Shown here piece after piece: positions 35,188-38,780 of a stretch of 48,837 nucleotides of DNA. The DNA is from an uncultured Micrococcales bacterium (GTDB lineage Bacteria; Actinomycetota; Actinomycetes; Actinomycetales; Microbacteriaceae). The notes beneath the pieces are model-generated. The model had not been told where the DNA came from, searched no databases, and saw nothing but the letters and a program-made list of their open reading frames with translations. Where the stretch lies: NCBI GenBank assembly GCA_903880095.1, contig CAIRNX010000006.1, forward strand, positions 1 to 48,837, in the 5' to 3' direction. How positions within the stretch are numbered: position 1 is the stretch's first letter; each line of letters opens with the position of its first letter. Made by a program: the position numbers and the translations under genes.

Positions 35188-36468
35188 CTAATTCTTGTTG
35201 CCGATAATTGATGGTGCGGTTTGGTTGGGCAACTGTGAATCCAAACCGAACATCGATGTCGCCTTGAGTAGGAATTCAATGGCTCGGTCTTTATCACCGC
35301 GGTTTTTGTAAATCTCTGCGAGCTTGCGGTAGATGATCGCCGTGGTTCGGCTAGCCCCGCTCATTTCAAGAGCCTTGGCGCAAGATTCGGCTTCGTTCTG
35401 GGCTTCGGCGTCTAGACCCAGCGCGTTGTAGACCTCAATGGCGGTCATCGAAAATTTTGAATAGTCAATCGAATACTCAATGTTGGTTAGCTCGCGGGCA
35501 ACCTCGAGTTGGCCAAGCGCACTTTCGCGTTTGCCCTGTTTGGCGAGCACTAAAGCTCGAGACATGGCTGTGCCAACCTTGTTGCCGTCATATTGTTCGT
35601 GCAATTCATCTGCGGCGTCTAAGTCTGTGAGAATCTGGTCGAAGTTTGGCTTGTCGGCCATGAGTTCGTTCAAAACGCGATTCTCTAATAGCGTCGCAGT
35701 CATGCGAGGCTGATCGGCAAGTCGGGCCCACACCAGAGCTTCTCGAGTCAAAAGTTCTGCCTCGATGAAGTCACCTTCTTCGTTTGCGAGGTTGGCTTTA
35801 GTCCACAGGTGCATCGCTTTGGCGCGCGGTGAAGGTAGTTTATTGAGCTCAAGGTCATTGAGCTCGGCAGCCTGGTGAAGGTCTCCGGTTTCTAGGTAAG
35901 CACCCGCGATAGTGCCACGTAGCCCAACGACTGCATCGGTTAGCTCATCGCTGTAACCACGCCATTCTTCGAGGGCGTGCTCCCCAATCGAAATAGCGTG
36001 CTGCAGATGCCCCATTTCACGCAAAACACGGCAACGGGCAAGTGCAACGCTCATCTTTGTTACTGGTGAAACGAATGGAGCCTCGAAGGCACGCTTAAGG
36101 TATCCGGCAGCCTTGGTGAGATCGTTCTGCTGTTCGGCATCAAGGCCAAGTAACAGCAGAGCCTCGGGGGCGTTGTCCATGCGGTCAATAAACTTCTTGG
36201 CGGCCTTCAAGCCACCGGCTCGGTAGGCCATTTCGGCGCGATCAGCTAGTGGGTGAACGCCTGCGGTGATTAGGGGTGCCGGGAGTTTGATCTCCATGCG
36301 GGCAGCGAGCTCGCGCGCCATGCGCGGGTTTGCGTTGCGCTTGCCCGACTCGATAAGTGAAAGGTAACTGATCGAGCAAATGCCATCACACGCCTCGGCA
36401 AGGCTTAAGCCCGCGTTACGTCGTGCGGTGCGAAGTTGCTCTGCGAAAACAATATCAATCTCAACCAT
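35188..36468 (-). CDS. HTH-TPR transcriptional regulator (RRNPP-like)
   Basis: This 426-aa cytoplasmic regulator has an XRE-type helix-turn-helix at about residues 8-65 (FAEQLRTARRNAGLSLAEAC...ISYLSLIESGKRNANPRMARELA). The rest of the chain is alpha-helical tetratricopeptide-like repeats with alternating A/L/Y/G positions (for example ALLLGLDAEQQNDLTKAAGYLKRAF and ALGLDAEAQNEAESCAKAL). Length and layout match NprR/PlcR/Rgg-type receptors that bind short imported peptides. It is divergent from a 35-aa exported peptide gene, with a palindrome between them. The promoter TTGGAA-N17-TATCAT ends 6 bases before ATG, so the gene is leaderless. Peptide sensing is inferred from architecture and context. 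Confidence 0.85.
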   Translation of the reverse strand: MVEIDIVFAEQLRTARRNAGLSLAEACDGICSISYLSLIESGKRNANPRMARELAARMEIKLPAPLITAGVHPLADRAEMAYRAGGLKAAKKFIDRMDNAPEALLLLGLDAEQQNDLTKAAGYLKRAFEAPFVSPVTKMSVALARCRVLREMGHLQHAISIGEHALEEWRGYSDELTDAVVGLRGTIAGAYLETGDLHQAAELNDLELNKLPSPRAKAMHLWTKANLANEEGDFIEAELLTREALVWARLADQPRMTATLLENRVLNELMADKPNFDQILTDLDAADELHEQYDGNKVGTAMSRALVLAKQGKRESALGQLEVARELTNIEYSIDYSKFSMTAIEVYNALGLDAEAQNEAESCAKALEMSGASRTTAIIYRKLAEIYKNRGDKDRAIEFLLKATSMFGLDSQLPNQTAPSIIGNKN

Positions 36469-36474
36469 ATTTGA

Positions 36475-36503
36475 ATGATAATTGACACTTTTTGACTTTC
36501 CAA
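36475..36503 (-). promoter_or_regulatory. Leaderless promoter of the HTH-TPR regulator
   Basis: On the minus strand -35 TTGGAA (36498-36503) and -10 TATCAT (36475-36480) are 17 bases apart, and the -10 is 6 bases from the ATG. The -35 lies inside the palindrome at 36492-36508. Confidence 0.6.
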
Positions 36504-36508
36504 GTCAA
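36482..36508. promoter_or_regulatory. Probable operator: TTGACTT-TCC-AAGTCAA plus a TTGACA half-site
   Basis: A perfect 7-bp inverted repeat (36492-36498, 36502-36508) with a 3-base centre lies midway between the divergent regulator and peptide genes. An extra TTGACA at 36482 is exactly 10 bases from TTGACT at 36492. The repeat covers the regulator -35, fitting autoregulation, and is well placed to control the peptide gene. Confidence 0.6.
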
Positions 36509-36532
36509 TACACTCCAAAAGGAGGTGATTAT

Positions 36533-36640
36533 ATGAAAAAGTTTCTAAGAATTCTTTTGGCAACGACTCTTGTGTTCGCAACAGTCCAGGTTGGTGTGAG
36601 CGCACTTGGCACTGGTTACAAGTGTTGCGAGATAGCCTAA
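36533..36640 (+). CDS. 35-aa exported peptide (candidate signalling propeptide)
   Basis: The frame begins MKKFLRILLATTL, continues with a hydrophobic core to GVSA, and ends LGTGYKCCEIA. It reads as a Sec signal peptide with a V-S-A cleavage site after residue 24, releasing an 11-residue peptide with adjacent cysteines at 31-32. Its ribosome site AAGGAGGTGATT (36519-36530) is almost the full anti-SD complement, the strongest in the window, which argues for real and heavy translation. It is divergent from an HTH-TPR regulator across a palindrome and its stop overlaps the convergent kynA stop by 4 bases. I recognise no family. PapR, NprX or SHP-like pheromone precursor is the best analogy; a small toxin or bacteriocin is the alternative. 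Confidence 0.7.
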   Translation: MKKFLRILLATTLVFATVQVGVSALGTGYKCCEIA

Positions 36641-37458
36641 AAGCGCGATCGAATCGCCCAGAGGTCGGGGAATACCGGGCGGAACAGCGTGGAGGCGAGA
36701 TACCCGACTCCGCTTGAGCCGCCCGTCCCGATCTTCTGGCCGATTGTGCGTTCGACCATCTTCACGTGGCGGTAGCGCCACTCCTGAAGGCCTTCGTCAA
36801 GGTCAACGAGGCGCTCGCAAACAGCCGCGGCGTCTGGGTCTCCGTGGTGAACCCTTAGCAACACTTCTTGCAACTCTTCATTAGCCTCGTAAGGTGCGGT
36901 TACATCGCGCCCCAGCAAACTTTTTGGTACTTTGTGCCCACGGCCTGCTAGATATGCCAGCATGCTGTCCCACAGGGCGGGGCGGGCCATCGCGGCTTCG
37001 ACGCTTGCTCTTGCGGGCGAGCCTTCAATCAAGTGCTCGGCCATGCCCATGCCCGATTGCTTGGATGCATCACTGCCTGCGTAGTCGCGACGACCCAAAA
37101 CGGCCTCGAACTCTCTGAACTGCGCGCTCTGAAAACCGCTGCTAGAAGACAGGCGACCCCTGAACGAGTTGAACTGCAGGGGTGTCATGGTTTCGAGAAT
37201 GTCAATCTGACCAACGCAGGTTTTCATGATTGTGCGCACGCGTCCAAGCAGCGCCAAGGCTCGGTGGGTCTCTCCTGTCTCAAGTGCAAGCTGAAGAGCC
37301 GCAACTTCGTGGAGCATCTGCTTGAACCACAGTTCGTATGTTTGGTGAATGATGATGAACAGCATCTCGTCGTGTTCGCCATCGCTCAACGGTCGCTGTA
37401 GTTCAAGAAGTTCGTCGACCTTTAGGTAAGAAATGTAAGTGACTGCTTTATCGCTCAT
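36637..37458 (-). CDS. kynA: Tryptophan 2,3-dioxygenase
   Basis: The 273-aa heme enzyme opens the indole ring of tryptophan to N-formylkynurenine. It starts YISYLKVDELLELQRPLS, has the substrate helix FIIIHQTYELWFKQMLHEV, SFRGRLSSSSGFQSAQFREFE, and the heme-ligand His in EWRYRHVKMVERTIG followed by GTGGSSGVGYL. Length is near the family norm. Its ATG overlaps the kynU stop (ATGA), so the two genes form one operon with kynU first. No formamidase (kynB) is visible in this window. Confidence 0.96.
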   Translation of the reverse strand: MSDKAVTYISYLKVDELLELQRPLSDGEHDEMLFIIIHQTYELWFKQMLHEVAALQLALETGETHRALALLGRVRTIMKTCVGQIDILETMTPLQFNSFRGRLSSSSGFQSAQFREFEAVLGRRDYAGSDASKQSGMGMAEHLIEGSPARASVEAAMARPALWDSMLAYLAGRGHKVPKSLLGRDVTAPYEANEELQEVLLRVHHGDPDAAAVCERLVDLDEGLQEWRYRHVKMVERTIGQKIGTGGSSGVGYLASTLFRPVFPDLWAIRSRF

Positions 37459-38780
37459 GTGACACGGCTTCCGTTATCTTCGATCTGCTTGTAGTCCTCG
37501 CGCTCTACCGACTCTTTGATTCGCAAGAAGCCGTCGTAAACCTCTGTGTAGCTGGTGGGGAGTGGAGCAATTGCAAGGCGAATGCCGTTCGGCACCCTGT
37601 AGTCGGGCACAACGCCGGCAAACTTGCGAAGAGCTGCCGCAATGCGCTTGGCCTCTGGGTGAGTCACGGTGATGTGACCGCCACGTTTGTGAGCTTCACG
37701 CGGCGTGATGAGCCCAAAGCCAAGAGGTGCAAGCCAGGCGTCGTAGAGCTTCAACATCAGCTCGGTGCCGAGAGCTGCCTTTTCAGCGATGGCCTTTATG
37801 CCGGCCTCTTCGATCATTTCGAAACTTGCCTGAACCCCGCGAAGGCCGATGATGCTTGGGCTCGCGATCTGAAAGCGGCGAATTGTGTCGGTCGGTTCGA
37901 AGTCCGGGCCCATCTCAAACTGCTTGTCTTGAGCAAACCACCCCTGAATCGGCACGCGCAACTGGCTCTGGAGGTCTTTGCGAACATAGAGCCAAGCGGG
38001 TGAGCCTGGGCCGGCATTGCCGTATTTATAGGTGCAGCCAACCGCGAGGTCGACACCGTTGGCGTCAAAGTCAAGTTCGATTGCGCCGGCCGCGTGGCTG
38101 GCGTCCCAAACTACAAGAATTCCGTATCGTCGGCAGAGGTCGGTGATTCCCTTGATATCTGGGCGTGACCCCGAGCGATAGTGAATTGCTTGCAGGGTAA
38201 CAAGCGCCACATCTTCGCTCAAGAACGGCTCAAGCGCCTCGGGGGTAATGAGCTCATGTTCGTTGGCTATGGTTTGGGCGTTTGGCCCGCCGGAGCCGTC
38301 GTTGTCTAAAGTCACAAGGTTTAGCCCACGAGCCTCAGCGATGCCGGCGAGCAGGTAGCGGTCGGTCGGGAAGTTGCTTGAGTCGATGATCACGGTCTTT
38401 CGGCCAGGCCTTGCGGTGATCGCAGCATTGCACAACTGGTAGAAGTTCACGCTCGTGGTGTCTTGCACCACAACCTGGCCGGGGCCAGCGCCCAGAACTG
38501 CCCTGCCGAGGAGGTCGCCGGTTGGCGAGGCTTCGTCGATCCAGTGGCTCCAGCCATCAACGAGTTCGCGACCCCACTCTTCGGTTAAAAATGAGTTGAT
38601 TCGGCGAACCGTATCGAGCGGCATTCGACCGAGCGAGTTGCCGTCTAGGTAACACAGTTCGGGGTCGCTGATTTGGAAAAGCGACTTGTATTTGGCCAGC
38701 GGGTCAGTCGAATCAAGGGCGAGGGCATCCTCGCGGGTTGGCGTGCTCAAACTGGGCCTTTCGTCATCGAAACGCTTCAA
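37455..38780 (-). CDS. kynU: Kynureninase
   Basis: This 441-aa PLP enzyme cleaves kynurenine to anthranilate and alanine. It contains YLDGNSLGRMP, DTTSVNFYQL, DSSNFPTDRYL, WDASHAAGAIELDF (cofactor Asp), the Schiff-base lysine in GCTYKYGNAGPGSPAWLYV, and QGWFAQ. The start is TTG 38780 behind GAGGAG. It is divergent from a lipoprotein gene; an inverted repeat with arms AAACGCTTCAA and TTGAAACGTTT flanks its ribosome site. Together with kynA it makes a tryptophan-to-anthranilate route. Confidence 0.95.
   Translation of the reverse strand: MKRFDDERPSLSTPTREDALALDSTDPLAKYKSLFQISDPELCYLDGNSLGRMPLDTVRRINSFLTEEWGRELVDGWSHWIDEASPTGDLLGRAVLGAGPGQVVVQDTTSVNFYQLCNAAITARPGRKTVIIDSSNFPTDRYLLAGIAEARGLNLVTLDNDGSGGPNAQTIANEHELITPEALEPFLSEDVALVTLQAIHYRSGSRPDIKGITDLCRRYGILVVWDASHAAGAIELDFDANGVDLAVGCTYKYGNAGPGSPAWLYVRKDLQSQLRVPIQGWFAQDKQFEMGPDFEPTDTIRRFQIASPSIIGLRGVQASFEMIEEAGIKAIAEKAALGTELMLKLYDAWLAPLGFGLITPREAHKRGGHITVTHPEAKRIAAALRKFAGVVPDYRVPNGIRLAIAPLPTSYTEVYDGFLRIKESVEREDYKQIEDNGSRVT

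Follow-up and report, generated by a model that had tools for sequence, protein, structure and literature searches.

A two-gene cassette in actinobacteria that looks like a peptide-signalling system of the type described in Firmicutes

Introduction

In the Bacillus cereus group, the regulator PlcR is paired with the small precursor PapR, which carries a Sec signal. PlcR combines an HTH and a TPR domain and is activated by a small exported peptide that is re-imported through Opp, as described in the excerpted text of PMC4873490. Peptides of the RRNPP type are treated as a matter of the Firmicutes in the excerpt of PMC13220807, and the systematic RRNPP survey in PMC10075063, as its excerpted text presents it, covered Firmicutes and viruses only. 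The same excerpt gives small molecules made by enzymes as the typical quorum-sensing signals of actinobacteria. In a table within the excerpt of PMC4748050, TPR appears among genes predicted to act in quorum sensing in several genera of actinobacteria, including Rhodococcus, Saccharopolyspora, and Thermobifida. In the open-licence PMC literature, we found no RRNPP system described in Actinomycetota.

Here, we describe a two-gene cassette, recurrent in many actinobacteria, whose features suggest cell-to-cell signalling of a kind so far described in Firmicutes. It resembles PlcR-PapR in joining an HTH-TPR regulator to a small, putatively exported peptide. In a profile search of the PDB, PlcR (2qfc) was the best natural protein, with an E value of 2.2e-19 over the HTH and the first TPRs and four engineered TPR proteins ahead of it, and Foldseek placed PlcR (3u3w) at rank 3 with an E value of 1.2e-5. 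Descent from a common ancestor with the Firmicute receptors could be read from the profile match, yet HTH and TPR domains are common and other TPR proteins match equally. The cassette differs from PlcR-PapR in phylum, in the longer TPR part of its regulator (426 aa, against a PlcR chain of 293 residues), and in the tails of its peptide family, which carry Cys-Cys (CC) or Trp-Pro (WP). NprR-NprX and Rap-Phr are also unlike it, since the identity of the fold matches is 11 to 16% and unrelated TPR proteins match as well, and we know of no Cys-Cys signature in NprX or Phr peptides. The FxSxx-COOH system likewise has a peptide partner, and its TPR protein (NF040586) is the best NCBIfam match of our regulator; this match, however, falls at 24 bits below the cut-off of 300 and spans the TPR part only, which leaves the regulator outside that family.

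Results

The window analyzed is the whole stretch of 48,837 nucleotides from an uncultured Micrococcales bacterium, whose closest named relatives in a genome scan are Microbacteriaceae and Rhodoluna assemblies. The earlier note on this DNA had described a 426-aa HTH-TPR regulator, a 35-aa ORF that diverges from it and carries a Sec-like signal, and a gap of 64 bp between them, a layout that proved exact to the base. The regulator (or putative receptor) gene lies on the minus strand at positions 35188 to 36468; its product matches Pfam HTH_31 and HTH_3 at the N terminus and TPR_12 and TPR_2 at the C terminus, all above cut-off, and was modelled by AlphaFold2 with a pLDDT of 93.6. The small ORF (MKKFLRILLATTLVFATVQVGVSALGTGYKCCEIA) runs on the plus strand from an ATG at 36533 to a stop codon at 36638 to 36640. 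We regard this 35-aa reading frame (36533 to 36640) as a peptide precursor gene on the basis of its sequence and of the similar ORFs that adjoin close receptor homologues, as detailed below. A predicted Sec-type signal peptide (MKKFLRILLATTLVFATVQVGVSA, 36533 to 36604, from sequence and hydropathy) ends at a cleavage site placed by eye and by hydropathy. The predicted secreted tail that follows, LGTGYKCCEIA (36605 to 36637), is the candidate pheromone, being the faster-evolving part in homologues, and includes the Cys-Cys codons (TGT TGC, 36623 to 36628) that form the family signature. The 64-bp intergenic region (36469 to 36532) contains a strong Shine-Dalgarno sequence for the peptide gene (AAAAGGAGGTGAT, 36517 to 36529), which, like the signal, tail, and Cys-Cys codons, is on the plus strand.

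On the strand opposite to the peptide gene, positions 36637 to 38780 hold genes for tryptophan 2,3-dioxygenase and kynureninase, the former overlapping the peptide stop codon. The gene pair of the closest relative (G039, locus L002) likewise adjoins a tryptophan 2,3-dioxygenase gene.

The 35-aa peptide had a sole Pfam match, to DUF6203 (E value of 0.28, below cut-off). No Pfam model reached its cut-off for the three precursors tested, and no NCBIfam model did so for the five receptors and four precursors tested. Against PHROGs, the receptor of the window had a single weak HTH match, and another receptor had several in the HTH region. We considered and rejected a phage origin, as a scan of the viral_contigs collection yielded no relative and the phages collection yielded one 35% match, to an unverified fecal contig on which no CC or WP ORF was found.

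The palindrome that had been claimed between the divergent genes is present and perfect (TTGACTTTCCAAGTCAA, 36492 to 36508), and we treat it as a candidate operator; it is retained in the closest relative, where it reads TTGACTAGACAAGTCAA. Across the family, palindromes are only mildly enriched, and the effect is modest, with arms of at least 6 at 49% of 133 family loci against 26% expected. The whole genome has one other exact TTGACTN5AGTCAA site (G000:C31:5668), which by eye is flanked by TTTACT/AGTAAA repeats and lies beside another small HTH-like gene, and whose counterpart in G039 has one arm altered. For these reasons, it is probably the operator of another regulator, and we rejected it as a target of ours. 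The operator search of the genome returned no convincing target gene.

Homologues of the receptor were gathered by receptor similarity alone, in collections drawn from 15 of 99 genomes, from the best 80 of 184 scan loci, and from 100 of 394 class genomes at E values of 1e-20 or lower. ORFs were called signal-like by a hydropathy test rather than by a dedicated predictor. Within the genus, the receptor was found in 7 of 60 genomes, and at all seven loci (L001 to L007) it is accompanied by a short signal-like ORF in which Cys-Cys stands near the C terminus, the window's own being included in both counts. Among the best 80 of the 184 scan loci, a CC-type ORF was present at 78 when both strands and both sides were searched. 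In the divergent 430 bp alone, Cys-Cys stood near the ORF end at 75 of these 80 loci, against 4 of 1676 control windows drawn from the same loci, and formed the last two residues at 68, against 0 of the 1676. Loci L128 to L229, a redundant series that includes distant receptors, had a CC-type ORF at 54 of 102.

As the homologue collections overlap, the main count is carried by a non-redundant set of 118 receptors with less than 80% identity. In this set, a CC-ended signal-like ORF lies near 81 of the 101 receptors with a profile E value below 1e-60 and near 1 of the 17 at 1e-60 or above (Fisher 4e-9; the cut was set post hoc, after the results had been seen, and 33 of the 118 receptors had served to build the profile). 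Controls gave a CC-ended ORF at 1 of 27 other XRE genes, that one unconvincing, and in 0 of 110 flank windows. The small ORF therefore accompanies the regulator in most close homologues, as the earlier note had asked to be checked. In 66 cases the two genes diverge; elsewhere the peptide gene sits downstream in convergent orientation (9 cases) or upstream on the receptor's own strand (3), or the placement is mixed (4). That the pairing survives these changes of position argues for a functional linkage. On a quick receptor tree, the CC rows span 14 family labels (whole-genome loci), and the label is clustered, with 13 changes against a shuffled mean of 31.

Twenty of the 101 close homologues lack a CC-ended ORF. 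Six of these have a similar signal peptide followed by a W..P tail, two lie at contig edges, one (L144) has a similar signal peptide with a different tail, and one (L009) has Cys-Cys further inside, with the remaining 10 unexplained.

Other arrangements were seen at individual loci. At L157, L159, L161, and L167 (f38), an extra CC-ended ORF of the secreted type lies convergent downstream, besides the divergent one. A TPR-only paralogue, from which the HTH part of the profile is absent, directly follows the HTH-TPR receptor at L230:3766-4855 (G164). On the Streptomyces plasmid pADI95-16a, a CC-ended precursor downstream of the receptor (L248:4036-4251) is annotated as the hypothetical protein WP_123083198.1.

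The two adjacent cysteines of the tail, which the earlier note thought odd, are real but far from exceptional, being the commonest signature of the family. We counted 142 distinct CC precursors, 117 of them with an exact CC end, and among CC precursors both Cys codons alternate between TGC and TGT. Signal and tail were compared alike by global alignment, on pairs that are not independent of one another. At 85 to 95% receptor identity (76 pairs), mean identity was 0.78 for the signal and 0.50 for the tail, the tail being lower in 69 pairs; at 75 to 85% (157 pairs), the means were 0.66 and 0.29, with the tail lower in 153. Values of dN/dS were 0.41 for the signal and 0.66 for the tail, and the receptor gave 0.20 over 104 pairs whose signals were at least 60% identical. 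The proposal that the tail would vary while the signal is kept is borne out by these figures. The zero nonsynonymous changes at the Cys-Cys codons are a selection effect, since Cys-Cys was required for inclusion. In one pair, L043 (Microbispora amethystogenes) and L130, the receptors are 95% identical and none of the 8 tail residues before Cys-Cys are common.

Tails of other types were found as well. In a Streptosporangiaceae-type subgroup, the signal peptide is retained but followed by tails like GWNHPG, GWVYPG, and GPWGYPI. Beside some distant homologues, precursors have repeated cores, with three copies of IGNWPDPM at L220 (G064), two of TGNWPDPM at L219 (G082), two of DIEWP at L206 and of DIGWP at L221 (both f37), and three of TVGGSWPT at L225 (G738); for the majority of distant receptors, no such precursor was seen. 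Outside the class, the divergent ORF at 12 of 21 loci consists of a signal peptide and a very short WP/CC tail (e.g., NWPKH, NWPHH, FPWPK, PWPPCC, and PWPHCC), a pattern defined post hoc on the same 21 loci and present in 0 of 282 control windows. Trp-Pro lies within the last 12 residues of 7 of the 142 CC peptides, and single tails that combine both motifs include DWPGMCC besides the PWPPCC and PWPHCC just named.

The AlphaFold2 model of the regulator consists of an HTH (about residues 6 to 57) and a TPR superhelix of nine TPR-like hairpins (about residues 75 to 406, in a register assigned by hand). Its fold matches include peptide-bound structures of Rap, NprR, and PlcR, and also unrelated TPR proteins; eukaryotic TPR proteins and MalT exceed Rap and NprR in Z. 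Residues R147 and W222, assigned to the groove through the TPR register, are kept in 79 and 81, respectively, of 82 CC-type receptors. In the clade of L201, L203, L210, L236, and L237, R147 is replaced in 4 of 5 and W222 in 5 of 5, and no WP/CC peptide was found; this clade may sense something else. Nine of the 10 unexplained CC-less close homologues were checked and all 9 keep both residues, so that these do not track the adjacent peptide gene. Among the 11 receptors of the f37/f53 clade, each groove residue is kept in 10, yet WP precursors were identified for 3 of them. Most receptors of other classes have M or V in place of W222, and several of these have a peptide. We also considered coevolution of tail and receptor within the groove and rejected it, as the concave side held 15% of receptor differences in 65 tail-switched pairs and 11% in 47 similar-tail pairs (raw percentages), which is only a weak shift.

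The statement that no Opp system is visible holds for the window but not for the genome, which has an Opp-type operon elsewhere, on G000:C31. This cluster encodes two SBP_bac_5 proteins, two BPD_transp_1 permeases, of which one carries OppC_N, and a double ABC_tran protein that also has oligo_HPY.

Discussion

Taken together, we think it probable, judging from sequence, that this locus encodes a minimal peptide-pheromone system, RRNPP-like in its working, in an actinobacterium. Of the features by which an RRNPP system is recognized, we find an N-terminal XRE-type HTH and a C-terminal TPR superhelix (by Pfam and the model), an adjacent gene for a small, apparently exported propeptide (81 of 101, with signals judged by hydropathy), and an available oligopeptide importer (the Opp-type cluster, from its sequence). 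The sequence checks that were run, on co-conservation and on tail against signal divergence, support the RRNPP-type reading that had been suggested for this pair. The reading is based on the conserved pairing, the precursor architecture, the faster evolution of the tail, the predicted TPR fold, and the presence of Opp.

In such a system, the 35-aa precursor would leave the cell by the Sec route, and cleavage after VSA would yield a Cys-Cys-bearing tail of about 11 residues, perhaps trimmed further. The tail would then re-enter the cell through the Opp oligopeptide importer, whose genes lie outside the window, and, once in the cytoplasm, would bind the concave TPR groove of the divergently encoded regulator. 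The bound tail would alter the action of the regulator at the intergenic palindrome and probably also at unlinked target genes. Cleavage, import, binding, and response, together with the direction of regulation, density sensing, and target genes, are the parts of this scheme that we infer.

Alternatively, the secreted CC peptide might itself be an effector, such as a small bacteriocin or a metal- or redox-binding peptide, with the HTH-TPR protein as its repressor, responding to something else. A regulator that is close and divergent, with a palindrome in between, would suit this arrangement, a strong Shine-Dalgarno sequence suggests high output, and Cys-Cys could bind metal. We nevertheless consider it unlikely, because the tails vary strongly save for CC/WP, and related precursors have repeated cores or tails of about 5 residues, which fits a receptor ligand better than an effector. 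In addition, a search for shared neighbours, covering 10 proteins from 9 loci (of 12 picked, a small sample), found none in common; 4 of the proteins belong to unrelated Pfam families and 6 to none, and no immunity, modification, or export gene recurs among them.

The peptide could also act within the producer cell or its membrane, as in secretion or membrane self-sensing or a toxin-antitoxin-like pair, with neither release nor re-import. The precursors are indeed short and hydrophobic, and toxin-antitoxin loci often have HTH regulators too, but the faster evolution of the tail relative to the signal part, the repeated cores, and the presence of an Opp importer make this quite improbable. The small ORF is short and matches no Pfam or NCBIfam model at cut-off, but a chance reading frame is scarcely credible here: the control windows (0 of 1676, 0 of 110, and 0 of 282) contradict this, and the alternation of both Cys codons between TGC and TGT among CC precursors and the strong Shine-Dalgarno sequence also speak against it.

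Building on the peptide-pheromone reading that we prefer, a broader proposal, for which we see the case as evenly balanced, is that of a phylum-wide family of ribosomal pheromones in Actinomycetota. Its members would end in Cys-Cys or Trp-Pro, or combine the two like PWPHCC and DWPGMCC, with lineage-specific tails and one family of HTH-TPR receptors. The Cys-Cys pair may form a vicinal disulfide outside the cell and be reduced inside, so that only the imported peptide would be recognized.

If this is true, a peptide language would be encoded beside its receptor in many actinobacterial families, including those of Nonomuraea and Microbispora, which are antibiotic producers. Such communication would be testable with synthetic peptides of 5 to 12 residues and might switch silent pathways.
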